A DNA stretch of 11,349 nt from contig JAHDBX010000023.1 in the NCBI GenBank assembly GCA_020630145.1, forward strand, positions 1 to 11,349, given 5' to 3'. Shown here one piece after another: positions 1-11,349 of this stretch. The stretch comes from Gammaproteobacteria bacterium (GTDB taxonomy: Bacteria > Pseudomonadota > Gammaproteobacteria > HTCC5015). A program made the position numbers and the translations under genes. The notes below the pieces were generated by a model. The model did no database searches. It was not told the DNA's origin and saw only the letters and a list, made by a program, of their open reading frames with translations. The number at the start of each line of letters is the position of its first letter. Position 1 is the stretch's first letter.

Positions 1-121
1 ACTGGGCAATATTTGCCCGCAGCATCGTTCTGGCCTGCCACTATGTTATATCTCTCTATTATTTTCTCTTAGTGTTGGCCTGCTTTATTACCTACCGTTT
101 AAACGTTTTTTTCAATATTAG
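1..121 (+). CDS. 3' end of a probable membrane protein gene (partial)
   Basis: An open frame enters from the left edge (codons begin at base 2) and ends at TAG 119-121, giving 39 visible codons. The visible peptide has a hydrophobic run (ISLLFSLSVGLLYYLPF) followed by a basic and aromatic tail (KRFFQY), the pattern of a last transmembrane helix with a short cytoplasmic end. The stop lies 12 bases before a strong hairpin, which fits a gene end. A second frame (codons from base 3) is also open and hydrophobic, but it runs into the hairpin and stops at 144-146, so I prefer the first. The family cannot be identified from this fragment, and it may not be coding at all. Confidence 0.3.
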   Translation, partial: LGNICPQHRSGLPLCYISLLFSLSVGLLYYLPFKRFFQY

Positions 122-128
122 ACACATA

Positions 129-166
129 CAAAAATGCCCGCACTAGGCAAACGGCTAGGCGGGCAT
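129..166 (-). terminator. Rho-independent terminator of fabV (possibly bidirectional)
   Basis: ATGCCCGC at 134-141 pairs with GCGGGCAT at 159-166. An inner CTAG/CTAG pairing (143-146 with 155-158) extends the stem past a one-base bulge. Read on the minus strand, the stem is followed at once by five T (complement of 130-134), the classic intrinsic terminator form. It lies 23 bases beyond the fabV stop. On the plus strand the hairpin has no good T-tract, so it would end an upstream plus-strand transcript only weakly. Confidence 0.8.
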
Positions 167-188
167 GCATATTTACTTTGTATAAAAG

Positions 189-1382
189 CTACAAGGTCAA
201 TAAATTTTTAATATCAACTTCTGTTGCCACATCGGCATCATAGTCCACACCATCAATTTCAAAACCAAATAAACGTAAAAATTCTTGTTTATAACCGTCA
301 AGGTCAGAGATAGTTTTTAAATTCTCTGTTGTGACTTGTGGCCATAGCTTTTCAACTTCACGTTGTACTTCCTGCTTCATTTCGAGATCATCGGCTCTCA
401 ATCGGCCTTCATCATCTTGTAAAGGTGAGTCACCATATAAGCTTTGCTTAAATAGTCGGTACACTTGCTCTATGCAACCTTCTTGCGTGCCATTTGCCTT
501 CATTATTTTAAAGAGTAATGACAAGTACAAAGGCATAATCGGAATAGCAGAACTGGCTTGTGTAACCACCGCTTTTAAAACAGATACGCGTGCATCGCCA
601 CCAATATTTTGTAGGCCTTTACGAATATCCAGTACGCGTTTATCTAAATCTTTTTTCGCTGCGCCAATGGTTCCATCCCAATAAATGTCCCATGTCATTT
701 TTTCACCCATGTAGGTATAAGCCGTTGTCTTTGCACCTTCGGCTAATACACCTGCATCCGCCAAATCAGCAATCCACATTTGCCAATCTTCACCACCCAT
801 CACGGCTACTGTATTATCAATATCCTCTTGGGTTGCAGGTTCAAGGGTCATCTCTTCGATAATTTCTTTATCCGTGTTTACACCATTTTGGGTAAAACTT
901 TTACCTATAGGTTTAAGTGTAGACATATGTGTCTCACCTGTTTTAGGGTGAGTACGACGAGGTGAGGCAAGACTATAAACAACTAAGTCAACCTGACCAA
1001 AGTCTTCTTTTATCGTTTCAATGGTGAGGCGCTTGATTTCATCGGAAAAAGCATCGCCATTGATGCTTTTTGCATACAGGCCTTCTGCTTCAGCAGCCTC
1101 ATGAAAAGCAGCCGAGTTATACCAGCCTGCTGAACCCGCTTTACGCTCAGTACCCGGCTTTTCAAAGAACAAACCCAGCGTGGAAGCACCCGCACCAAAA
1201 GCAGCACTAATACGAGATGCAAGACCATAACCTGTCGATGCACCAATAACCAATACTCGCTTAGGCATATCAATTGCGCCTTGCGACTTCACATAGTCTA
1301 TTTGATTCTGTACGTTTTGAGCACATCCCACTGGATGCGTTGTCACACACATAAAACCGCGAACTTTAGGCTTGATCACCAT
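189..1382 (-). CDS. fabV: FabV, NADH-dependent trans-2-enoyl-ACP/CoA reductase
   Basis: FabV catalyses the last reduction of each fatty acid elongation cycle in the cytoplasm, from trans-2-enoyl-ACP to acyl-ACP using NADH. It replaces or accompanies FabI and is much less sensitive to triclosan. The 397-residue product has the family's usual length and opening ([10 protein letters not shown] followed by TTHPVGC). A glycine-rich nucleotide-binding segment, [11 protein letters not shown], lies at residues 47-57. The family's Y-x8-K active-site pair is present as Tyr234 and Lys243 within [10 protein letters not shown]. The ATG at 1382 is chosen over an in-frame TTG at 1403 because AGGAAGAG (complement of 1390-1397) lies 7 bases upstream and the protein then starts as its homologues do. 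It is a single-gene unit with its own promoter and terminator. It is unrelated in direction to the light-regulated genes, although it also belongs to fatty acid metabolism. Confidence 0.97.
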
Positions 1383-1416
1383 ACCATTTCTCTTCCTAGA
1401 CAAAAATTAGACGCGT

Positions 1417-1445
1417 ATTATAGCGACATTCATGCAGAGATGATA
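1417..1445 (-). promoter_or_regulatory. Predicted fabV promoter
   Basis: On the minus strand a perfect TATAAT -10 box is the complement of 1417-1422. At 17 bases spacing the -35 position (1440-1445) reads TATCAT, a poor match to TTGACA, and there is no extended -10 TG. The predicted start near 1410 gives a leader of about 28 bases holding the AGGAAGAG ribosome site. The -10 is clear; the -35 is not. Confidence 0.5.
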
Positions 1446-1728
1446 CCGTGAGAATATGACAGAAAACTAGCTTAGTTATCCAGATCTAACTTCAGTTGTT
1501 TGCACAAAGTTTTACAGACTTTCAGACAGAAAAGCCCGTTGAGAACACCGTCCTCTTTAGTTACGTATATGAGCACTGCTTAATTACAAACCGTGATAAG
1601 CTTACCCAAAGTCATCATATAAAAATATAAAGTGTTATTCACCCGGACTTTTGATAAAAAGTAAAACTGGTCACAAATACTTTACATATCAATAATACGA
1701 AAAATACTTCTCACGCAAGGTAATAATT
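1446..1728. other. Intergenic stretch without a recognisable gene
   Basis: Between the fabV promoter and the DUF6435 gene I see only AT-rich sequence and very short open frames on either strand (12 codons or fewer where checked). There is no tRNA-like fold or strong terminator. TTGATA (1651-1656) and TTTACA (1681-1686) are possible -35 boxes for the downstream small gene, but neither has a convincing -10. An AAGG ribosome site (1717-1720) closes the stretch. Confidence 0.5.
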
Positions 1729-1899
1729 ATGTTCGGATTTTTAAAAGGCGATCCACTAAAAAAACTAGAAAAAGAATACGATGCGCTACTTGAAAAAGCA
1801 ATGCAGGCTCAACGTAACGGTGATATTAAAAGCTATTCTTTGCTTACGGAATCAGCTGAAAAAGTAAAAGCTCAACTCGATACCTTAAAGGCAAGCTAA
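1729..1899 (+). CDS. Small DUF6435 (Lacal_2735-type) protein
   Basis: A 56-residue cytoplasmic protein of unknown function. It starts MFGFLKGDPLKKLEKEYDAL and continues with an alternating charged, heptad-like helix through LEKAMQAQRNGDIKSYSLLT to the C-terminus. This matches, from memory, the short DUF6435/Lacal_2735 family (typical form MFG-[LF]-[FK]-K-DP-x-KKL-x-KEY...A...QR-x-GDI-x-x-[YF]). The whole chain is predicted to be helical, possibly a two-helix hairpin, with no signal peptide or membrane segment. The ATG has AAGG 8 bases upstream. It stands alone: fabV is divergent to its left and the photolyase ends toward it on the right. No function can be assigned. Confidence 0.85.
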   Translation: MFGFLKGDPLKKLEKEYDALLEKAMQAQRNGDIKSYSLLTESAEKVKAQLDTLKAS

Positions 1900-2024
1900 A
1901 CGCTAATCTTCAGATGCCAGCATCTCGCATCATACAAAACAGTATATGCAGAGTCTTCTACTTAACAGCAATAGAAGCAACAGAAAACGTTGTAATGCTG
2001 CTAATACAAGAACAAATTTATCGA

Positions 2025-3495
2025 CTACGTTTTAATTTGTTTGTAGGCATCAAGCGCGGCTTGACGGCTGACCTTTAAATCAACAATGGGTTCGGGGTAA
2101 TTGTCGCCTAAGCGCACATTTGCTGTTTGCAATATAGCTGCTGGGGCTTCCCACGGCGCATGTATATATTTTGCAGGCAAACTAGCAAGCTCTGGCACAA
2201 AGCGTTTGATATAAGCACCATTTTTATCAAAGCGCTCGCTTTGGCTCACCGGATTGAATATCCGAAAATATGGTGCTGCATCGGCACCACAACCCGCTAT
2301 CCACTGCCAACCCGCTGTATTATTGGGTAAATCAGCATCGACTAAGGTATCCCAAAACCAACCCGCACCCTCTAACCAATGTAAAGTTCTTTGTTAATAA
2401 AGACCCTACTATCATACGGACGCGATTATGCATCCAACCTGTTTGCCATAGTTGACGCATACCCGCATCGACAATAGGTATACCGGTTTGCCCTTGCTGC
2501 CAACGCTGCAAATTTTCAGGATGCTGGTGCCATGTGAAAGCTGCAAACTTTTCTTGCATAGGTTTATTCGTCACATGCGGGTAATGATAAAGCACATGAT
2601 GTGCGAATTCACGCCAAGCTAATTCGCGTATATAAGCCATGCCATTTTCTTCAGCGACACTTGCCTTGGCTGGCTCGGCCATTGCCATCGCTTGACGAAT
2701 GATATGTGTAGCCTGTGCCGGGCTAATTTGCCCAAAGTGTAAATACAATGAAAGCTTTGAGGTGTAATCATGCTCTGGGAAGTCACGCCCTTCTTTATAA
2801 GTATCTAACAATGTATCGGCATGATCATGCAAGCGCTGATGCGCTGCGGCCTCACTCATAGGCCATTGTGTAGCAATTTGTTCTTGCCAAGGCAGACCAT
2901 TTATATGTTCTTGTTTTTGAGGTAACAGTTGTAAAGACGCTAGGGACTGACCTGATACTTGAGCCTTAGCAGCCAACAATTTTTTAGGCGCTGGTAATGG
3001 ATTAACATGAATACCTTGTTTGAGCATATTTTTCCACATCGGTGTAAATACTCGATACGGTGTCCCTTGTCCCGTTTGCAATTCCCAGGGCTCAAACAAA
3101 AGATTCGCTTTATAGCTTTTTACCCATATACCCTGCTCACTTAGTGCTGACTTAATAACTTTGTCTCGATTAACTATTGCAGGGTCATACAAACGATTCC
3201 AGTAAATGGCGCTCGCGTGCAGGCTTTGCAACACAGCAACAATATCTTCACTTGTCTGGCAGTGGTGGATATGAAGGCTGGAGCCTAACTTTCTTAGGTC
3301 TGCATCCAAGGCATGCAAGGCATGATGCAAACAAACATTGCTAGCAGCACCTCGTGACCACGGCGCCTCTGTATCTGGCGCATGTATATAAATGGGCAAA
3401 ACAGAAGCGCCGCTAGCTATAGCGGCGCTTAAGGCAGGATTATCGGCTAGACGTAAGTCACGTCTAAACCAAACGATAGCTACATCTTCAGTCAC
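2025..3495 (-). pseudogene. phrB: Frameshifted class I DNA photolyase (cryptochrome/photolyase family)
   Basis: An intact product would bind FAD and use light to split cyclobutane pyrimidine dimers. From the GTG at 3495 the frame encodes the N-terminal antenna domain (AIVWFRRDLRLADNPAL) and most of the FAD domain, including YKEGRDFPEHDYTSKLSLYL, RELAWREFAHHVLYHYP, IVDAGMRQLWQTGWMHNRVR and MIVGSLLTKN. It then leaves frame and stops at TGA 2332-2334 after 387 residues. Homologous sequence resumes in another frame: HWLEGAGWFWDTLVDADLPN, GWQWIAGCGADAAPYFRIFN, then PVSQSERFDKNGAY, ending at TAG 2025-2027. Between the codons for Asn (2386-2388) and His-Trp (2376-2381) only four bases remain (2382-2385). 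Relatives have three residues there (TKDLLIHW in the usual form), so about five bases are missing. The rest of the FAD pocket lies after the break. The start is 3 bases after the upstream gene's stop (TAA TTT GTG), so the two were cotranscribed. A sequencing error cannot be excluded. Confidence 0.88.
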
Positions 3496-3498
3496 AAA

Positions 3499-4341
3499 TT
3501 ATGCAGCAACGATGACTGATAACTCTTTACGATAACGACTCAAATCTTTTGCGGTTTCTAACTTACGATCGAATAAACCAGACATTTTACGCAAAATCGC
3601 AGTAACCACTTTATCTTCCCACTCGCGATTAAAGTCAATTTGTGTATTCAACCAATTCTCTAACCACTCTGGCTCAGGCATTTTGCTTTGCACCGTATCA
3701 TTTGGAAACATCGTTTCATTAACATGCAGGTTTGTCGGGTGCATAGCTCGAGACGTTTTTTGATTCGTCATTAATACACCAATTTTTGCGAACGATAGCT
3801 TCGCAGCATCGCCCGCCTGCTTAATGGCTTTATCCATATAACGCATATAACAAGATGCATGGCGCGCTTCATCGCTAGATAAGACGCTGTAGATTTGTTT
3901 GATTACTGGCTCTGTATGCCATTCGGCCGCACGACGATACCAATTCGTTAGGCGTATTTCACCACAAAAATGCAGCATAAGCGTTTCCAAAGCTGGCGCC
4001 TCATCAAACTCAAAACGTACATTATGCAACTCTTCTTCTGTTGGCATTAAGTCAGGGCGGAAGCGGCGTAAATACTCTATCATCGCGAGAGAGTGCTTTT
4101 GCTCTTCATAGAACCAAACAGACATAAAGGCTGAGAAATCAGAGTCATGACGATTGTCACGCAAAAACATTTCTGTTGCAGGCAACGCAGACCACTCCGT
4201 GATAGCGTTGTATTTTATCGATAAGGCTTGCTCATCTGATAATTTCTTATTATCAAAAGCATCCCAGTTGATATCTTTCTCCATAGACCAACGGGCACGT
4301 TCTAACGACCTGTAAAGCTGTGGGTAAATCATTTCTGACAT
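3499..4341 (-). CDS. Ferritin-like di-iron protein, acyl-ACP desaturase type
   Basis: A 280-residue soluble helical protein with a full set of di-iron carboxylate ligands in ferritin/desaturase order: Glu49 (AITEWS), Glu80-x-x-His83 (YEEQKH), Glu128 (CGEIRL) and Glu158-x-x-His161 (SDEARH). This is the arrangement of soluble acyl-ACP desaturases (FA_desaturase_2, plant stearoyl-ACP type), which use O2 and reduced ferredoxin to place a double bond in an acyl chain. Related di-iron oxygenases or hydroxylases share the fold, so the substrate is inferred. No signal peptide or membrane helix is seen. The start ATG has AGAGGA 8 bases upstream. It is the first gene after the divergent operator region and reads directly into the photolyase (3-base gap), so it likely shares light control. 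In that setting, making or further oxidising unsaturated acyl chains would complement the lipid-modifying operon opposite. The fold is secure; desaturase activity is probable. Confidence 0.85.
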   Translation of the reverse strand: MSEMIYPQLYRSLERARWSMEKDINWDAFDNKKLSDEQALSIKYNAITEWSALPATEMFLRDNRHDSDFSAFMSVWFYEEQKHSLAMIEYLRRFRPDLMPTEEELHNVRFEFDEAPALETLMLHFCGEIRLTNWYRRAAEWHTEPVIKQIYSVLSSDEARHASCYMRYMDKAIKQAGDAAKLSFAKIGVLMTNQKTSRAMHPTNLHVNETMFPNDTVQSKMPEPEWLENWLNTQIDFNREWEDKVVTAILRKMSGLFDRKLETAKDLSRYRKELSVIVAA

Positions 4342-4385
4342 TCAGTCATTCCTCTAGGTACAAGAAAGGGAAATATTCATAATAC

Positions 4386-4412
4386 TTATACAAACTTAGC
4401 ATAATTGTACAA
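4386..4412. promoter_or_regulatory. Putative LitR-type operator near the desaturase/photolyase promoter
   Basis: TATACA (4387-4392) and TGTACA (4406-4411) form a direct pair separated by 13 bases, one more than the N12 reported for PplR1 sites. The right half lies in a perfect 12-base palindrome AATTGTACAATT (4403-4414). On the minus strand the same bases read TTGTAC, 16 bases, TATAAG, so they overlap a plausible promoter for the desaturase-photolyase genes. A regulator bound here would block polymerase. No binding data are available. Confidence 0.5.
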
Positions 4413-4460
4413 TTTTTTAGCTAAAAACTTGATTTAAAGTTATTTTCTTCTACAATATGT

Positions 4461-4484
4461 TGTACAACTTACGTAAATTGTATA
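4461..4484 (+). promoter_or_regulatory. Putative LitR/PplR operator, exact direct-repeat match
   Basis: TGTACA (4461-4466), exactly 12 bases, then TGTATA (4479-4484). This fits without mismatch the direct repeat T(G/A)TACA-N12-TGTA(C/T)A described for PplR1 of Pseudomonas putida. The left half sits inside the palindrome GTTGTACAAC (4459-4468). The site lies midway in the divergent gap, about 120 bases from one start codon and 180 from the other, and the downstream operon encodes a regulator of this family. It is the best operator candidate in the window. Confidence 0.65.
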
Positions 4485-4489
4485 ACTTT

Positions 4490-4497
4490 TTGTATAA
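4490..4497. promoter_or_regulatory. Extra TTGTATAA half-site
   Basis: A further TTGTATAA lies 12 bases after the one at 4478-4485, in the same orientation. It abuts the nested palindromic element starting at 4498. With the neighbouring pair it makes three like elements in 38 bases (4460-4497), suggesting cooperative binding. It could also be a chance AT-rich match. Confidence 0.35.
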
Positions 4498-4571
4498 GTT
4501 TTGCCGAAAATCGCCATATAAGCACTTATATAGTGTCTATTTTACCTGTTTAAACAGGTAATCGGCAAAAC
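4498..4571. repeat. Nested palindromic element (10-bp outer inverted repeat enclosing two palindromes)
   Basis: The outer arms GTTTTGCCGA (4498-4507) and TCGGCAAAAC (4562-4571) are perfect inverted repeats. Inside lie ATATAAG-CA-CTTATAT (4516-4531, perfect arms) and a perfect 20-base palindrome TTACCTGTTTAAACAGGTAA (4542-4561) that touches the right outer arm. As RNA this would fold as a three-way junction in the leader of the plus-strand operon; as DNA it could extrude a cruciform or bind dimeric proteins. It does not resemble a cobalamin riboswitch: the element is only 74 bases and I see no B12-box-like sequence. The function is unknown. A small palindromic repeat family copied elsewhere in the genome is an alternative. 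Confidence 0.6.
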
Positions 4572-4607
4572 ATTACATAAAATTTACCGTGAATCATCCA
4601 AATTAAT

Positions 4608-4615
4608 TTGTACAA
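4608..4615. promoter_or_regulatory. TTGTACAA element proximal to the lipid operon
   Basis: A perfect TTGTACAA palindrome lies 44 bases before the first start codon of the plus-strand operon. No partner occurs at N12 spacing, so it is at best a half-site or an accessory site. It might lie close to the transcription start if a promoter uses the TAAAAT at 4578-4583 as its -10, but that box has no good -35. Confidence 0.3.
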
Positions 4616-4646
4616 CGAATAGATTACTTTACAAAACACATGTAGA

Positions 4647-4654
4647 AGAGGAGG
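4647..4654 (+). promoter_or_regulatory. Strong ribosome binding site of the lipid operon
   Basis: AGAGGAGG lies 5 bases before the ATG at 4660. It is the strongest Shine-Dalgarno match in the window and fixes the start of the first gene. Most later genes of the operon have weak sites and rely on start/stop overlap. Confidence 0.75.
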
Positions 4655-4659
4655 CAGCC

Positions 4660-5190
4660 ATGCGCACATCGTTGAATTTATGCATATTTTTCTTGTATAT
4701 GCTGCCCTGTATAGCTTCAGCTACGATCATGCCAAAATCGCTGCAAGAAAAGTGGTCTGAGCTAAACAAACTCGGTATAGCCGAGTACAGCAAGTTTGGT
4801 TTCGATTTATATGATGCAGAGCTGTGGGCATCAAGCGATAAAGTAGACGCTTTAAATAAGCAAAATGTTTATGGCCTATCGCTAAAATACAAACGCAACA
4901 TTAAACAAGAGCAACTTCTCAAGGCTACAGCAAAGCAATGGCGTCGCTTACAGCTTGATGCAACGCTGAGCAAAAGCTGGCTTGCGCAGTTAGAATCAAT
5001 ATGGCCCGATATCAAGAAAGGCCACACCTTAAGCTTTGTTATAGATACACAGAATAATAGTTTGTTTTATTTAGGTGATCGTTACCTAGGTGAAATTAAC
5101 GATCACCGTTTTGGCTTTGCCTTTCTTGATATATGGCTACATGAACAGAGCCAGTTCAAGAAACAACGTCAACAATTACTAGGCTCATAA
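4660..5190 (+). CDS. Secreted chalcone isomerase-like protein
   Basis: A 176-residue exported protein. The N-terminus is a signal peptide (hydrophobic residues 7-18, AxA cleavage motif ASA at 19-21). The mature part has the features of the bacterial chalcone isomerase-like domain (Chalcone_3 type): FGFDLYDAELW (46-56), YGLSLKYKRNI (71-81), GHTLSFVIDT (121-130), then LGDRYLGEIND and FGFAFLDIWL (151-160). True chalcone isomerase chemistry is not implied; plant relatives of this fold include fatty-acid-binding proteins, so a periplasmic lipid or fatty-acid-binding role is an inference that fits the lipid genes downstream. It is the first gene of the operon, has a strong ribosome site, and ends 2 bases before the next gene. 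Confidence 0.85.
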   Translation: MRTSLNLCIFFLYMLPCIASATIMPKSLQEKWSELNKLGIAEYSKFGFDLYDAELWASSDKVDALNKQNVYGLSLKYKRNIKQEQLLKATAKQWRRLQLDATLSKSWLAQLESIWPDIKKGHTLSFVIDTQNNSLFYLGDRYLGEINDHRFGFAFLDIWLHEQSQFKKQRQQLLGS

Positions 5191-5192
5191 AT

Positions 5193-5732
5193 ATGTATAG
5201 ACTTATGCTAATACGTTCTTTTTTCATCTTGCTAATCAGCCTTTCGATAGGTGCTTGCTCTACATCTTTAAAAGACTACACCTCGACAGAACCTAAAATC
5301 GAGTTGGACCAGTTTTTAAATGGCCCTCTTAAAGCTTGGGGGGTTGTTGAAAACAGGTCTGGCAAAATCACTAATCGCTTTGTTGTAGATATGGAAGGCA
5401 GCTGGACAAATAATGTCGGCACTCTTAAAGAGTACTTTACTTACGATGACGGGCGTCAAGAAACACGGATTTGGACTATAGATAAAAATGGTGACCGCTA
5501 CACAGGCACTGCTGCTGATGTAATTGGTGAAGCTAAAGGTGAGAGTAATGGTTTTGCTTTTACTTGGTATTACACACTACGTTTAAAAACGAAAAGTAGA
5601 ACGATTAATGTGCAGCTAAAAGACTGGATATATCAAATTGACGATAATGTTGTTATCAATACAGCAGATATTAAAAAATTTGGTATTACTGTTGGCAAAG
5701 TCACACTGTTTATACAGAGGCAAACATCATGA
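5193..5732 (+). CDS. DUF3833 family lipoprotein
   Basis: A 179-residue predicted outer-membrane lipoprotein. The N-terminus has basic residues, a hydrophobic stretch and the lipobox IGAC, with Cys22 as the lipidated residue and Ser-Thr-Ser after it (no Asp at +2, so outer-membrane sorting is expected). The mature domain has the DUF3833 pattern: an early FLNGPLKAWG segment (residues 42-51), then GSWTNNVGTLKEYFTYDDG, RIWTIDKNGDRYTGTAADVI, and a C-terminal half rich in alternating beta strands (lipocalin-like; my inference). DUF3833 proteins have no settled function. They recur next to cyclopropane-synthase-family methyltransferases and chalcone isomerase-like proteins, as here. Its TGA overlaps the next ATG (ATGA, 5729-5732), indicating translational coupling to the regulator. 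Confidence 0.85.
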   Translation: MYRLMLIRSFFILLISLSIGACSTSLKDYTSTEPKIELDQFLNGPLKAWGVVENRSGKITNRFVVDMEGSWTNNVGTLKEYFTYDDGRQETRIWTIDKNGDRYTGTAADVIGEAKGESNGFAFTWYYTLRLKTKSRTINVQLKDWIYQIDDNVVINTADIKKFGITVGKVTLFIQRQTS

Positions 5733-6649
5733 ATGCAGTAAAAGGCGGGTTTCTTCAAGAGGAGCTATTTCCTATTCGCACAGTATCAAAATTAACGGGC
5801 GTTAACTCGGTTACTCTACGTGCATGGGAAAGGCGTTACGGTTTAATTACCCCCAAACGTACCGATACTGGACACCGTCTTTTTAGCAAAGACGATATTA
5901 AGATGATTCAACAAGCAAATAGCTTACTTCAAGAAGGCGTATCAATAAGCCAAGTGAGCAAACAATTAAAGAGCTCTCAAAAATTTGAAACGCTCCTTGT
6001 TGACCAACCCACTACTATTTGGGAAGAGTATTTAGAAAAAATGGTGTTTGCGGTAAGCGAATTTGATGAAGATATACTCGACGAAGTATATCAAGAAGCT
6101 TTGTCATACCACGCTATTAACGTCGTCACTCAAGAGTTAATCATCCCATTACTACGTATACTTGGCGAACGCTGGGTTAACTTGGATGGTGGCATTGCTG
6201 AAGAGCATTTCTTTAGTGTTTACCTGCGCAATAAACTCGGGGCACAGTACCACCACAAACGTGGCCGTAATAATGGGCCTTTGTTAATTGTTGCTTGCAT
6301 GCCCGGAGAAACACATGAATTCGCCATCTTATTATTTGGCTTAATCGCACATCAGCACAACTACCGCATGATTATCCTTGGTGCCGATATGCCCTTAGAC
6401 GAAATACCTTATATTGTTGAGAAAAAACAAGCCAGTGCGCTTATATTATCCTGTAACAAAAACTGTACATTTACTGCATCCACATTAGCACCCCTAACGA
6501 ATATAGCTACAACACCTATATTTGTTGGCGGCCATATGAGCGATGAACAAAAAGACATGCTTAAACGTTTTCATGCAACACCTCTAGACTGTGACTTTCA
6601 GAAAACTATAGATATTGTTAATAGTCAACTTAAACCTCAACTATCATAA
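5729..6649 (+). CDS. MerR-family regulator with cobalamin-binding domain (LitR/CarH type)
   Basis: A 306-residue predicted light-responsive repressor. Residues 14-82 form a MerR helix-turn-helix with the signature RAWERRYGLITPKRTDTGHR (31-50). Residues 95-170 form the helical-bundle half of the B12-binding region, and residues 184-300 form a Rossmann-like B12 domain (LLIVACMPGETHEFAILLFG). Key cobalamin residues known from CarH are present: W149-x9-E159-H160 (cap over the adenosyl group) and E194-x-H196 (position of the lower axial His ligand). The usual ExHxxG ends in Ala (EFA) here. In CarH, AdoB12 drives a DNA-binding tetramer in the dark and light breaks it. By analogy this protein would repress its own operon and the divergent genes in the dark. 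AGAGG lies 8 bases before the ATG, which overlaps the previous stop. Which LitR class it belongs to, and whether a LOV partner exists elsewhere, cannot be told from this window. Confidence 0.9.
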   Translation: MNAVKGGFLQEELFPIRTVSKLTGVNSVTLRAWERRYGLITPKRTDTGHRLFSKDDIKMIQQANSLLQEGVSISQVSKQLKSSQKFETLLVDQPTTIWEEYLEKMVFAVSEFDEDILDEVYQEALSYHAINVVTQELIIPLLRILGERWVNLDGGIAEEHFFSVYLRNKLGAQYHHKRGRNNGPLLIVACMPGETHEFAILLFGLIAHQHNYRMIILGADMPLDEIPYIVEKKQASALILSCNKNCTFTASTLAPLTNIATTPIFVGGHMSDEQKDMLKRFHATPLDCDFQKTIDIVNSQLKPQLS

Positions 6650-6653
6650 AATT

Positions 6654-7076
6654 ATGAGCACATTAATAGAAAGCTACGTTGAAACAATTAATGCACTGCC
6701 AAGCGGTGACATTAATGCGTTATTAAGAGAAGTTTACGCCGAAGACGTGACGTTTATCGACCCTGCTCATAAAGTAGAAGGCTTAACAAACCTTATAAAC
6801 TACTTTAGCAAACTATATCAAAACACGAACAGTTGCACTTTCTTTGTAAGCAACATCATTGCCGAGCAACAACAGTATTCACTGCAATGGAATATGACGC
6901 TCTCGCACAAAAGTTTACAAAAAGGTGCACCTATTACGGTTAATGGTGCATCCTTCTTACATTACGACAACAATAAAATTGTCTTGCATCAAGACTATTT
7001 TGATATTGGAGAAATGCTATATGAGAATGTTCCCGTGCTAGGGTCAGTCGTTAAACTAATAAAAAGTAAACTATGA
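6654..7076 (+). CDS. SnoaL-like / NTF2-fold protein
   Basis: A 140-residue cytoplasmic protein with the cone-shaped alpha/beta NTF2 pattern: an N-terminal helix (residues 3-28), then DVTFIDPAHKVEGLTNLINY (31-50), a central sheet with QYSLQWNMTLSH, and the C-terminal strand and tail IVLHQDYFDIGEMLYENVPV (109-128). SnoaL-like domains hold small hydrophobic substrates, often acting as isomerases or cyclases, and no reaction can be assigned here. The ATG at 6654 is preferred to an in-frame TTG at 6615, which would overlap the regulator gene by 35 bases and add 13 residues not typical of the fold. Only 4 bases separate it from the regulator stop, and its own stop overlaps the next ATG (7073-7076). 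The pairing with a short-chain dehydrogenase is common in this type of locus. Confidence 0.85.
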   Translation: MSTLIESYVETINALPSGDINALLREVYAEDVTFIDPAHKVEGLTNLINYFSKLYQNTNSCTFFVSNIIAEQQQYSLQWNMTLSHKSLQKGAPITVNGASFLHYDNNKIVLHQDYFDIGEMLYENVPVLGSVVKLIKSKL

Positions 7077-7846
7077 TGCAACTAAGTAATTATTTTGACA
7101 ACAAAATCATTTGGATTACGGGTGCATCAGCCGGTATTGGTGAAGCACTTGCCATTGCACTGTCACAATACAACACCAAGCTCATTCTTTCTTCACGCAA
7201 CGAAGCAAAATTAGAAAGTGTGAAATCTAAATGTGCTCACAGCAACATTACAATAGCAGCAGGTGACTTAAGCAACAAAGCCAGCAATGAAGCCATTGCA
7301 GAAAAAATTCAGGCACAATTTGGTCAACTCGATATTGCTTTATTCAATGCGGGCACCTGCGAATATGTCGATGCAAAAAACTTTGACAGCGCCTTATTCG
7401 AACGCGTATTTAATGCCAACTATTTCAGCATGGTGTACGGAATAGAAGCCGCACTACCGCTTGTCAGACGCTCAAACTCTCCTCAGATCGTCGGCATGAG
7501 TAGTACGGCTTACTATATCGGCATGCCTCGCAGTGAAGCATATGGCGCTTCTAAAGCGGCCATTGCTTATATGCTTAATGCTTTACGTATTAGTTTATTA
7601 CCAGAGAACATACCGGTTAGCGTTATTTGTCCAGGCTTTGTTGAAACGCCCTTAACAGATAAAAATGACTTTCCTATGCCCGGCAAAATTAGTGCCGAAA
7701 CCGCCGCAGAACATATTATTAAGGGTACCGCCAAACAAAGCGAAGAGATTCACTTCCCTAAACTGTTTAGCATAATAATGAAAACCTTTGCTAGCCTACC
7801 CTACTTTTTACAAACGCCTTTACTCGCAAAGATGGTAAAAAAATGA
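7073..7846 (+). CDS. Short-chain dehydrogenase/reductase
   Basis: A 257-residue cytoplasmic NAD(P)-dependent oxidoreductase of the classical SDR type. Visible motifs are TGASAGIG (16-23, cofactor binding), Ser41-Arg42 after the second strand (suggests NADP preference), the FNAG motif (91-94), and the catalytic residues Ser144, Tyr157 and Lys161 (YGASK). PGFVETPLT (187-195) forms the usual cofactor lid. The C-terminus (from about 225) is hydrophobic and basic, with LFSIIMKTFASLPYFL, which may bring the enzyme to the membrane. The substrate is unknown; a ketone or alcohol on a modified acyl chain is an inference from context. The start overlaps the SnoaL gene stop. A second ATG directly follows the first (7076), so the product may begin one residue later. 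Confidence 0.9.
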   Translation: MMQLSNYFDNKIIWITGASAGIGEALAIALSQYNTKLILSSRNEAKLESVKSKCAHSNITIAAGDLSNKASNEAIAEKIQAQFGQLDIALFNAGTCEYVDAKNFDSALFERVFNANYFSMVYGIEAALPLVRRSNSPQIVGMSSTAYYIGMPRSEAYGASKAAIAYMLNALRISLLPENIPVSVICPGFVETPLTDKNDFPMPGKISAETAAEHIIKGTAKQSEEIHFPKLFSIIMKTFASLPYFLQTPLLAKMVKK

Positions 7847-9129
7847 AAATAGCCGTAATTGGAACAGGTATCTCTGGTTTAACAGCCGCGTATAAACTCT
7901 ATAAAGATCATGATGTTACACTGTATGAGGCTGGTCACTATGTTGGCGGCCATGCTAACACCGTAGACACAGAAACATCGCTTGGCCGCATTCCTGTTGA
8001 CACAGGCTTTATTGTTTATAACGATTGGACTTACCCCAATTTTATTGAAATACTCAATGACATTGGCGTTGAGGTTGCTGAAAGTAATATGAGCTTCTCT
8101 GTTCAAAATGATAAAACAGGTTTGGAATGGGCTGGCCACTCAATTAACAGTTTATTTACACAACGTAAAAATTTTCTTTCGCCTACTTTTCACCGCATGT
8201 GGCGTGATATTTTGCGCTTCAACAAACTAGGCAAAGCATTTTCAAGCGCGGCATCATCAGTAGACAACAGATACACCTTAGACCTTTTCTTAAAAGATAA
8301 TCATTTTAGCCAAACATTTATCGACAACTATATTATCCCTATGGGTGCCGCTATTTGGTCCGCCCAACCTGAAAAAATGATGGATTTTCCAGCTTTAAGT
8401 TTTTTACGTTTTTTCAACAATCACGGCTTACTCAATGTAAAAAACAGACCACAGTGGCGAACAATCAAAGGCGGTTCGCGTGAATATATAAAAGCATTAA
8501 GCAAACCGTTTGCCGACAACATTCGCCTTAACGACCCTGTTAAAGCAATTATTAGGCAAAATAACAAAGTGCATATTCAAGCAAGCGACTTACAAATATA
8601 TGATCATGTGTTTATTAGCTGCCACAGTAATCAAGCACTAGCGCTATTAGGGCAAGCAAGCAAAGTTGAAGAATCAATACTGGGTGATATACATTATCAA
8701 AAAAATACCGCTATATTGCATACCGATGCTAATGTAATGCCTAGTCATAAGCGTGCATGGGCCGCTTGGAATTATCACTTACCTAAAAGCAGTAATGACA
8801 ATGTTGCGCTAAGCTATCATATGAATGTATTACAGCCGCTGGCTTGTCCCGATGATATTTTTGTTTCGTTAAACCCATACCAGGAAATTAATGAAAATAA
8901 AATTCAGCGCACTATTGATTATGAGCACCCTATATTTGACACCGCCGCTATTAATGCACAGCAACGTTTTTCTGAAATACAAGGTATTCAAAATACGTGG
9001 TTCTGTGGCGCTTACTGGCGTAACGGCTTTCATGAAGACGGTGTATGGAGCGCCATTGAAGCATTCAAAATGTTCACTCAAAAACTAGAAGAAAAAAATG
9101 AAGAGCTGCATTTACAAAGGGCAAGTTAG
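7843..9129 (+). CDS. FAD-dependent oxidoreductase (amine-oxidase/desaturase-like, COG2907 type)
   Basis: A 428-residue flavoprotein. The N-terminal dinucleotide fold has GTGISG (7-12) and Glu29 to bind the FAD ribose, followed by GGHANT (35-40) and DTGFIVYNDWTYPNF (53-67), typical of this group. The C-terminal FAD motif is visible as WFCGAYWRNGFHEDGVWSAI. Members sit beside DUF1365 and cyclopropane-synthase-family genes in many bacteria. In Rhodobacter the comparable cluster belongs to the singlet-oxygen response and includes enzymes for furan fatty acids (UfaD desaturase, UfaO). Acyl-chain oxidation or desaturation is therefore the likely role, but I cannot say which Ufa enzyme, if any, this corresponds to. 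The start overlaps the dehydrogenase stop (ATGA 7843-7846), and the 3' end overlaps the DUF1365 gene by 32 bases. Confidence 0.88.
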   Translation: MKIAVIGTGISGLTAAYKLYKDHDVTLYEAGHYVGGHANTVDTETSLGRIPVDTGFIVYNDWTYPNFIEILNDIGVEVAESNMSFSVQNDKTGLEWAGHSINSLFTQRKNFLSPTFHRMWRDILRFNKLGKAFSSAASSVDNRYTLDLFLKDNHFSQTFIDNYIIPMGAAIWSAQPEKMMDFPALSFLRFFNNHGLLNVKNRPQWRTIKGGSREYIKALSKPFADNIRLNDPVKAIIRQNNKVHIQASDLQIYDHVFISCHSNQALALLGQASKVEESILGDIHYQKNTAILHTDANVMPSHKRAWAAWNYHLPKSSNDNVALSYHMNVLQPLACPDDIFVSLNPYQEINENKIQRTIDYEHPIFDTAAINAQQRFSEIQGIQNTWFCGAYWRNGFHEDGVWSAIEAFKMFTQKLEEKNEELHLQRAS

Positions 9130-9865
9130 ACATCGCCGCTTTGCGGTTAAAGCACATAAGTTTAATTATCAGCTTTATATGATGTATGTAAATTTAGATG
9201 AACTACCCACTTTGTTCAAACCATTTTGGGGCTGGTCTACAGATCAACGCGGTTTTAATCTGGCACGTTTTTTACGCTCTGACCACTTTGGCAATAAGAA
9301 TGAACGTTTACAAGAAAGCGTCAGAAAATTAGTAAAAAAACAAGCTGACATAGACCTTGATGGCCCTATTTACTTGCTTACACATCTACGTTATTTTGGC
9401 TATGTATTTAACCCTTTATGCATGTATTACTGCTATGACAAAAACGAAGAAAATATAGTTGCCATCGTTGCAGAAGTGAGTAATACACCATGGGGTGAAA
9501 AACACTGTTATGTTCTCAGCAATAACTTAGGCAGCCAAAAGAAGCACTTTTATCAACACCCCAAAAATTTTCATGTCTCACCTTTTTTAGAAATAGATGT
9601 TGATTATCATTGGCGCTTATTCAATACAGATGAGCAGTTATTCATACACCTTGAAAACCGCAAACAAAACGAAAAGTTGTTTGATGCCACAATGATTCTG
9701 CACAAAGAAAGCATTTCTCAACGCTCACTCAACATTACCCTATTAACATACCCCTTAATGACCCTTAAAATTATTCTTGCTATTCATTACGAGGCATTAA
9801 AACTTTGGCTTAAGGGCGTTAAATATTTGCCTTATCAAAAGAAAAAAACTGTGGAGGACCTATGA
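9098..9865 (+). CDS. DUF1365 family protein
   Basis: A 255-residue protein of the DUF1365 family. It shows the family opening (CIYKGQVRHRRFAVKAHKFN, residues 4-23, and YVNLDELP), the core LRYFGYVFNPLCMYYCYD (97-114), and NTPWGEKHCYVL (129-140). The biochemical role is not established. The gene is almost always next to the FAD oxidoreductase and the methyltransferase, so it is expected to act in the same acyl-chain modification. His- and Tyr-rich segments are conserved, and a hydrophobic stretch near the C-terminus (LLTYPLMTLKIILAIHY, 213-229) suggests membrane contact. The ATG at 9098 fits the family N-terminus, with AGAAG about 6 bases upstream, although it lies within the preceding gene. 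The stop overlaps the next start (ATGA 9862-9865). Confidence 0.9.
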   Translation: MKSCIYKGQVRHRRFAVKAHKFNYQLYMMYVNLDELPTLFKPFWGWSTDQRGFNLARFLRSDHFGNKNERLQESVRKLVKKQADIDLDGPIYLLTHLRYFGYVFNPLCMYYCYDKNEENIVAIVAEVSNTPWGEKHCYVLSNNLGSQKKHFYQHPKNFHVSPFLEIDVDYHWRLFNTDEQLFIHLENRKQNEKLFDATMILHKESISQRSLNITLLTYPLMTLKIILAIHYEALKLWLKGVKYLPYQKKKTVEDL

Positions 9866-11136
9866 ATATTGTACCGACTATTGAAACCAGCTCTGATTGG
9901 AATGGCGGCATGACATTCATTGAACGCTTAGCTAAACGTTTAGTGCTAAAAAAACTTATGCAAATTCAATTCGGAGAGCTGCATATTGTTTTTCAAGACG
10001 AACATTATCAAGCAGGCAAAATAGATAGCACATGCGAATTAAAAGCAACTATTCACGTTAAGCACCCGCAATTCTTCGTTGACATTGCCTTTGGCGGCGA
10101 ACCCGGCGCAGGTGAAAGTTATATGCAGAATTACTGGACTACGGACAAGCTAACAACCTTAGTTCAACTTATGGTGCGCAACCGTCATGTGCTTATTAAT
10201 ATGGATAGCCGATTAGCAGCGCTAAAAAAACTAGCCATGAAAGCCGCTCACCAATTAAACGCTAACTCACGTAGAGGTAGCCAAAAAAATATTGGGGCGC
10301 ATTACGATATAGGCAATGACTTATTTGAATTATTCCTAGATCCAACGATGATGTATTCATCTGGCATATTTAAAAGCCCAGATATGACGATGGAAGAAGC
10401 CTCTAACTTTAAACTCGACACGATTTGTCGACGTTTAGAATTGAAACCTTCTGATAGTGTTATTGAAATTGGTACAGGCTGGGGCAGCTTTGCTATTTAC
10501 GCCGCAAAACATTATGGCTGTCATGTAACCACGACAACCATATCTGACGAACAACACCAATACACCAGCAAACAAATTCACAAGTACGGTCTAGAAAGTA
10601 AAATTACATTACTCAAACAAGACTACCGCGACTTAGAAGGAAAGTTCGATAAACTCGTCTCTATCGAAATGATCGAGGCCGTTGGTCATAAATACATGAA
10701 CACCTATATAGACAAGTGCTCAAGCCTACTTAAGCCCACTGGCAGTATGCTTATTCAAGCTATTACCATTCAAGACCAGTTCCATAGCCGCTATGTTAAA
10801 TCTACTGACTTTATAAAACGCTATATTTTCCCCGGCGGTTGCCTACCCTGCGTCAGCTCAATCAACAAGGCCGTACAAAAACATAGTGATATGACCCCCT
10901 TTCATATAGAAAGCTTTGGTGACTCCTATGCCCGCACACTCAAAGAATGGCGTGAAACCTTCTTCGACAAAATAGATCAAGTACGCCAGTTAGGCTACAA
11001 CAACAACTTTATTCGCTTATGGGAATACTACTTATGTTACTGTGAAGGTGGCTTTATGGAACGCTCAATCGATGTGAAGCATTTACTATTCACGAAACCT
11101 CAAAGCAGGCTAAAACCCGTTATATTGCAGGATTAG
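9862..11136 (+). CDS. Cyclopropane-fatty-acyl-phospholipid synthase family methyltransferase
   Basis: A 424-residue SAM-dependent enzyme acting on double bonds of phospholipid acyl chains. It has an N-terminal domain (1-140), then HYDIGNDLFELFLD (147-160), the SAM-binding loop IEIGTGWG (201-208), QDYRDL (253-258) and FIKRYIFPGGCLP (317-329). Compared with E. coli Cfa, Glu239 of the active site is kept as Glu272 (SIEMIEAVG), but Cys139 is replaced by Ser167 (MYSSG), the His of EHVG by Ala, and His266 by Gln299 (LIQA). The EMIEAVGHKYM/GGCLP pattern is closer to the plant-type branch of the family. In light- or singlet-oxygen-regulated loci such enzymes can methylate rather than cyclopropanate (UfaM, first step to furan fatty acids). 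The product here is therefore uncertain between cyclopropane and methylated chains, and no symbol is given. GGAGG (9852-9856) precedes the ATG by 5 bases. It is the last gene of the operon. Confidence 0.92.
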   Translation: MNIVPTIETSSDWNGGMTFIERLAKRLVLKKLMQIQFGELHIVFQDEHYQAGKIDSTCELKATIHVKHPQFFVDIAFGGEPGAGESYMQNYWTTDKLTTLVQLMVRNRHVLINMDSRLAALKKLAMKAAHQLNANSRRGSQKNIGAHYDIGNDLFELFLDPTMMYSSGIFKSPDMTMEEASNFKLDTICRRLELKPSDSVIEIGTGWGSFAIYAAKHYGCHVTTTTISDEQHQYTSKQIHKYGLESKITLLKQDYRDLEGKFDKLVSIEMIEAVGHKYMNTYIDKCSSLLKPTGSMLIQAITIQDQFHSRYVKSTDFIKRYIFPGGCLPCVSSINKAVQKHSDMTPFHIESFGDSYARTLKEWRETFFDKIDQVRQLGYNNNFIRLWEYYLCYCEGGFMERSIDVKHLLFTKPQSRLKPVILQD

Positions 11137-11157
11137 TTGTCCTTGTCGGTTTTTTTT
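11128..11157 (+). terminator. Weak intrinsic terminator of the lipid operon
   Basis: AGGA-TTAGTTG-TCCT forms a short stem around the stop codon, followed after TGTCGG by eight T (11150-11157). AAAACC (11112-11117) could also pair with GGTTTT (11148-11153). The T-tract is good but the stem is short and not GC-rich, so termination may be partial. Confidence 0.4.
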
Positions 11158-11349
11158 ACATGCTACACTCAAATTGTAAATATAAGCTACAAAAAGCCAG
11201 CATATATGTTAAAAAGCCAAAGTCGGCATATTTATATAAGACATTGAAAAACAAAGACTTTTTCAATATTTAACGCCAGATAAAAAAACTGGCATTTAAC
11301 TTGCATTAGATTACATATAACAAATATATATTGATTTTTTGGATGTAAA
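11158..11349. other. AT-rich intergenic tail with two hairpins
   Basis: No gene begins here. ATTGAAAAA (11243-11251) and TTTTTCAAT (11259-11267) form a perfect 9-bp stem with a 7-base loop. GCCAG (11275-11279) and CTGGC (11289-11293) form a second, shorter one around an A-rich loop. AAAAAGCCA occurs twice (near 11191 and 11210). TTGCAT (11301-11306), 18 bases, TATATA (11325-11330) could be a promoter for a gene beyond the window, at low confidence. Confidence 0.45.

Follow-up and report, generated by a model that had tools for sequence, protein, structure and literature searches.

A putative LitR operator array between divergent photolyase and probable furan fatty acid operons on a gammaproteobacterial contig

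Contig JAHDBX010000023.1 of a member of the Gammaproteobacteria (assembly GCA_020630145.1, GTDB lineage HTCC5015) carries the repeat TGTACA-N12-TGTATA between two divergent operons, raising the question of which regulator acts at this repeat and to what signal it responds. The window considered here is the whole stretch of DNA analysed, positions 1 to 11,349 of the forward strand. A first-pass annotation had taken the repeat for an operator of the light regulator PplR1, a class II LitR. The LitR-family part of that proposal is retained as the best reading of a site between photolyase and fatty acid methyltransferase operons, while the assignment to class II is not. The most probable answer, at roughly 60%, is that the 318-bp gap at 4342-4659 (G+C 29%) is a divergent control region bearing a LitR/CarH operator array, that the LitR gene at 5729-6649 supplies the regulator, and that this LitR represses both operons in the dark until photolysis of adenosylcobalamin (AdoCbl) relieves the repression. 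Light control of the locus is a prediction, for which the motif alone would be insufficient.

As reported, TGTACAACTTACGTAAATTGTATA at 4461-4484 fits the consensus T(G/A)TACA-N12-TGTA(C/T)A exactly, and is the sole exact match in the window. The consensus is the one printed in PMC9758184, a paper later than the original Pseudomonas putida report. When the whole window was shuffled 200 times, an exact match arose in 2 cases; for the 318-bp gap, the fraction among 20,000 Markov shuffles was 0.00055. The source genome (1.89 Mb, 73% complete) contains two exact matches, a count that says little because it is near the chance rate implied by the window shuffles. The other match, at G000:C62:2027-2050 (L183), lies about 70 bp upstream of a PhoX phosphatase gene, and with just these two matches a genome-wide regulon defined by the exact consensus was rejected. 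A looser direct-repeat scan returned six other places, several inside frames or at contig ends as judged from listed ORFs, and none adjoining an obvious light gene. The consensus is also its own reverse complement, and consequently 4461-4484 is equally an inverted repeat, the consensus alone being unable to tell a direct from an inverted arrangement. The pair described as a direct repeat is exact, but the unit was drawn too small, with further half-sites at 4387, 4406, 4449, 4491 and 4609.

The wider arrangement comprises the following features, none of which has an assigned strand except the last.

4461..4484: the pair TGTACA-N12-TGTATA, an exact match to the PplR1 consensus (PMC9758184) and the inner core of the operator.
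4447..4498: imperfect 52-bp palindrome with four TnTACA/TGTAnA half-sites around TTACGTAA, the proposed main operator of the plus-strand operon, from pairing count and shuffles.
4383..4412: second half-site pair, TATACA at 4387 and TGTACA at 4406 (step 19), the proposed operator of the minus-strand operon, from the half-site scan.
4605..4615, plus strand: sixth exact half-site, TGTACA at 4609, 45 bp upstream of the first gene of the plus-strand operon, from the half-site scan.

Six exact half-sites (TGTACA, TATACA or TGTATA) lie in the gap, at 4387, 4406, 4461, 4479, 4491 and 4609, out of 15 in the window; shuffled gaps contain 0.73 on average, and six were reached in none of 20,000. Four half-sites make up the palindrome, TCTACA at 4449 (the weaker, fourth one), TGTACA at 4461, and TGTATA at 4479 and 4491, giving steps of 12-18-12. 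In its arms 21 of 26 positions pair, a value attained by none of 2000 gap shuffles (maximum 19) and compared to a best of 16 elsewhere in the window. Given six half-sites in the gap, the chance that some pair is spaced by exactly 18 bp is 9%; the strong signals are therefore the clustering of half-sites and the palindrome, and not the N12 spacing. The array can also be read as three minus-strand direct repeats, AA(G/C)TT(A/G)TACAA, with steps of 12 and 18, each of which fits the CarH repeat nAnnTnnACAn (PMC8156234); since TGTACA is itself palindromic, the sequence is compatible with both readings. A palindrome score of 21/26 also occurs once at locus L155, before a short-chain dehydrogenase (SDR) gene, in sequence unrelated to that of the window.

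Possible promoters can be proposed on both strands. The 4387/4406 pair overlaps a weak minus-strand -35 element (TTGTAC, 4412-4407) and -10 element (TATAAG, 4390-4385), read from the sequence with a spacer of 16, and this promoter-like TTGTAC-N16-TATAAG is directed towards the ferritin-like and photolyase genes. Plus-strand candidates are TTGTAC-N15-TATAAC and TTACGT-N18-TATAAG, the latter aligning with TTGACT-N18-TATAAC in the related locus L092.

The regulator encoded in the plus-strand operon has the domain order of the LitR/CarH family, namely a MerR helix-turn-helix followed by a four-helix B12-binding_2 domain and a Rossmann B12-binding domain (Pfam); it is CarH by sequence, and its AlphaFold model shares the CarH/LitR fold. 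The protein keeps W149, E159, H160 and H196; of the published signature of cobalamin photoreceptors (GxxW, EH, GxxH, GxxxP), the eight residues tested are all present, and 66 of the 118 LitR rows compared have the full eight. With regard to cofactor supply, a BtuR/CobO-family gene and a cobalamin riboswitch are found on one contig of the genome, where the surrounding frames may encode a TonB receptor, a permease, an ATPase, a binding protein and CobQ.

The comparison drew on 117 distinct loci (42 + 75), five duplicates having been dropped beforehand from 122. The 42 were picked by likeness to the window's LitR, and 35 of them are B12-type. A first contig scan, before alignment A1, found no relative; the other 75 came from a scan with alignment A1 and the peptides LRAWERRY and [IV]AEEHFF[SGA], the best 80 being kept. 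Both choices bias the sampling towards the window's LitR type, and proportions among those 75 distinct loci are biased because the peptides favour EH-bearing LitRs and only the best 80 were retained. In a quick tree, the 75 rows (the window and 74 relatives) whose residues at the CarH positions are W, E, H and H make up exactly one side of a branch with an SH-like approximate likelihood ratio test (SH-aLRT) value of 98. The other 43 rows lack at least one of the four residues, and include the Pseudomonas and Halomonas LitRs of the set, which are without the ligand residues.

Half-sites are enriched ahead of litR in the window's own group. The 300 bp before litR in the 74 relatives contain 167 half-sites, where shuffles give 18.1 and a coding control gives 9; at least one is present in 63 relatives and at least two in 53. 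Pairs at 19 bp occur in 8 of the 74 and pairs at 18 bp in none. The exact N12 pair is likewise found in 0 of 74, and conservation of the repeat across orthologous gaps, for which a motif search had been suggested, was not observed. The window thus combines a LitR of the B12 type with a core spaced as in class II and arms spaced almost as in CarH. Exact N12 sites do occur in 9 of the 43 other loci (12 sites), in eight cases upstream of litR or its operon (five Halomonas and three Pseudomonas loci with class-II-type litR operons) and in L146 downstream. Ahead of other genes of the set half-sites were less frequent, with at least two within 350 bp for 12/52 flavin adenine dinucleotide (FAD) oxidoreductase, 5/58 photolyase and 1/6 chalcone-isomerase-like genes; many such genes are probably internal to operons.

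The genes of the two operons are as follows.

4660..5190, plus strand: chalcone-isomerase-like gene (CHI), first of its operon (Pfam PF16036).
5193..5732, plus strand: DUF3833 gene (Pfam PF12915).
5729..6649, plus strand: litR, the proposed repressor (Pfam, CarH by sequence, residues, tree, AlphaFold model).
6654..7076, plus strand: SnoaL-like gene (Pfam PF12680).
7073..7846, plus strand: SDR gene (Pfam PF00106).
7843..9129, plus strand: FAD-dependent oxidoreductase gene, probable ufaD from gene order (Pfam PF01593).
9098..9865, plus strand: DUF1365 gene, probable ufaO (Pfam PF07103).
9862..11136, plus strand: cyclopropane-synthase-family methyltransferase gene (CMAS), probable ufaM from gene order (Pfam PF02353).
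3499..4341, minus strand: gene for a ferritin-like di-iron protein, at the head of the divergent operon (Pfam PF03405 above cut-off, PF11583 below).
2019..3495, minus strand: photolyase gene in two frames, with a frameshift near 2377-2384 (Pfam, and tblastn with a Pseudomonas photolyase).

The two operons do flank the site as first described, but the nearest gene on the left is the ferritin-like one (3499-4341), and only beyond it, after 3 bp, comes the photolyase gene. This ferritin-like gene (FA_desaturase_2/AurF-like), directly preceding the photolyase gene, had no match above the display cut-off in the gene lists of the 42 LitR-similar loci. The photolyase was recovered by tblastn in two pieces, 3477-2377 and 2384-2019, and the frame change at 2377-2384 is either a pseudogene lesion or an assembly error. 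The adjacent CMAS, amine oxidase and DUF1365 families bring homologues of ufaM, ufaD and ufaO together, and the row FAD oxidoreductase-DUF1365-CMAS probably corresponds to UfaD, UfaO and UfaM of the furan fatty acid pathway, UfaO being known to carry DUF1365 (PMC7380195). The gene set matches a light-induced cluster of Pseudomonas, that of pmlR1 (PMC9758184). Two other loci share the CHI-DUF3833-LitR order, L092 and L142, and in L092 the whole order is that of the window (CHI, DUF3833, LitR, SnoaL, SDR, FAD, DUF1365, CMAS, then photolyase), with an 11-bp pair before the first gene.

The leader of the plus-strand operon contains a structure of its own at 4498-4571, where a perfect 10-bp outer inverted repeat (GTTTTGCCGA/TCGGCAAAAC) encloses two hairpins, one of them the perfect 20-bp palindrome TTACCTGTTTAAACAGGTAA at 4542-4561. 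The RNA fold has a predicted energy of -27.3 kcal/mol (z -6.9), matched by none of 200 shuffles; the structure is single-copy in the genome, has no Rfam match, and is possibly a leader RNA or a site for another protein.

Under the proposed mechanism, AdoCbl-loaded LitR oligomers would occupy the 52-bp palindrome and the 4387/4406 pair in the dark, keeping RNA polymerase off both promoters. In the light, cleavage of the Co-C bond of AdoCbl would cause LitR to release the DNA, and both operons would be switched on together, one for the ferritin-like protein and photolyase, and the other for the CHI-like, DUF3833, LitR, SnoaL and SDR proteins with UfaD, UfaO and UfaM. The output of the plus-strand operon would then be furan fatty acids and more LitR, the latter a form of autoregulation.

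A number of observations weigh against this mechanism. Known CarH operators are built from tandem 11-bp repeats, unlike the 12-18-12 steps here, of which the 18-bp one has class II spacing; the quartet pattern occurs in 1 of 369 genomes, namely the window's own. Among the 74 relatives, an 11-bp pair is present in just 28, and 11 have no exact half-site within 300 bp. L142, with near-identical gene order, encodes a LitR without the cofactor residues, and the 1400 bp ahead of its litR are free of half-sites; the window's LitR was found in 0 of 3 of the genome's family mates examined. The promoter scan picked up none of the proposed promoters on either strand, and their positions are therefore tentative. 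Lastly, LitR has V150 at the position of CarH H132, departing from the bis-His photocycle of Thermus; H132A CarH was mostly tetrameric after light, although an earlier report cited there has it disassembling (PMC10442372). This last point also bears on an unlikely, but the least unlikely, alternative, in which the local LitR binds the array without B12-based light sensing, responding instead to cobalamin level or to a partner protein, in the manner of CarA and CarS, or acting as an activator. Histidine is found at the H132 position in none of the 75 rows with cofactor residues, where E, A, Q and K are commonest, and CarA binds B12 yet represses without needing it (PMC8156234). However, the window's LitR keeps the full photoreceptor signature, and CtMerR, with arginine at the H132 position, is still light-responsive (PMC11796333). 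Photolyase and ufa genes also make light a sensible signal, a view supported by the roughly 25- to 33-fold rise of phrB and ufaM in the light in P. mendocina (PMC9758184).

PplR1 itself was dropped as the first choice of regulator because the local LitR has the cofactor residues and none of the 74 related loci has an N12 pair. A class II system, in which blue light acts through a short LOV protein to release a B12-free LitR of the PplR1/PmlR type, would account for the exact consensus, for the gene set shared with Pseudomonas, and for the N12 sites ahead of the Halomonas and Pseudomonas litR operons, but is improbable here. In the flanks available, short LOV genes are near none of the 75 LitRs of the window's kind, compared to 10 of the 43 others; class II sites, without outer half-sites, pair at 11-13 of 26 arm positions, compared to 21 in the window; and the 73% complete genome yielded no short LOV partner, its best LOV-like match being a 702-residue frame with 26% identity and a PAS stretch without the LOV cysteine. 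The ten loci with a nearby short LOV gene, all with LitRs missing cobalamin-ligand residues, are L139, L146, L152, L155, L156, L161, L162, L164, L165 and L170; L139 and L146 lie outside Pseudomonas, suggesting that partnership with LOV proteins extends beyond that genus. It is more doubtful still that some other dimeric regulator uses the palindrome and that its likeness to a LitR site is convergent. Palindromes resembling TTGTACAA are simple and AT-rich, and the gap has a second perfect one at 4542-4561, yet the half-sites match a matrix built from the relatives' litR promoters, the operon itself encodes a LitR, and an arrangement of this kind is found at the corresponding position in L092. 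That the array arose by chance is hardly credible; the low G+C of the gap and the near-chance genome-wide count would allow it, but dinucleotide-type shuffles reproduce neither the number of half-sites nor the palindrome. ECF/ChrR control was also considered and rejected, with one match to the consensus TGATC-N16-20-TAWG in the window, in the far gene and at chance level, and a ChrR-like cupin in the genome below cut-off only.

If AdoCbl-dependent repression by LitR is correct, furan fatty acid synthesis and photolyase in some Gammaproteobacteria would answer to a B12 photoreceptor, so that singlet-oxygen (ChrR) and LOV control would not be the only kinds. The locus would also provide a testable case of a regulon kept while its light sensor was exchanged, a natural test of DNA release by a CarH relative without H132, and a warning that matching the PplR1 consensus does not identify the chromophore. 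A more speculative and rather doubtful extension is that the four-half-site palindrome is a new operator form for B12-type LitRs, its core at class II spacing and its arms near CarH spacing, that a photolyase and furan fatty acid regulon is here under a direct B12 photoreceptor without H132, and that this regulon passed to class II LitRs as they lost B12 and gained a short LOV partner. The literature searched, which does not extend to most subscription papers, contained no description of a CarH-type LitR controlling these genes.

Among known systems, the class II LitRs (PplR1 of P. putida, and PmlR1 and PmlR2 of P. mendocina) share with the window the consensus of the core and a single light cluster of litR, photolyase, SDR, FAD oxidoreductase and ufaM genes. 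In contrast to class II loci, the window's LitR has the B12-photoreceptor residues, its incomplete genome yielded no short LOV gene, its outer half-sites extend the core to a 52-bp palindrome, and the RudS-type first gene (DUF523/DUF1722) of the Pseudomonas loci is absent. In Rhodobacter sphaeroides, where UfaM, UfaD and UfaO belong to the enzyme families found here, the furan fatty acid pathway is higher in a chrR mutant (PMC7380195), whereas the window's genome has only the weak cupin match. The class I, AdoCbl-dependent CarH/LitR proteins of Thermus thermophilus and Bacillus megaterium share the domain order, the Wx9EH and GxxH motifs, the fold, the half-site TnnACA and, if the predicted promoters are correct, a promoter-overlapping operator. 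These differ in having H132, in operators of three or four tandem 11-bp direct repeats as opposed to 12-18-12 steps, and in targeting carotenoid genes as opposed to photolyase and furan fatty acid genes. In size, the window's 52-bp palindrome is near the CarA/CarH operator of Myxococcus xanthus, which spans about 55 bp and is bound by two CarA dimers (PMC8156234).
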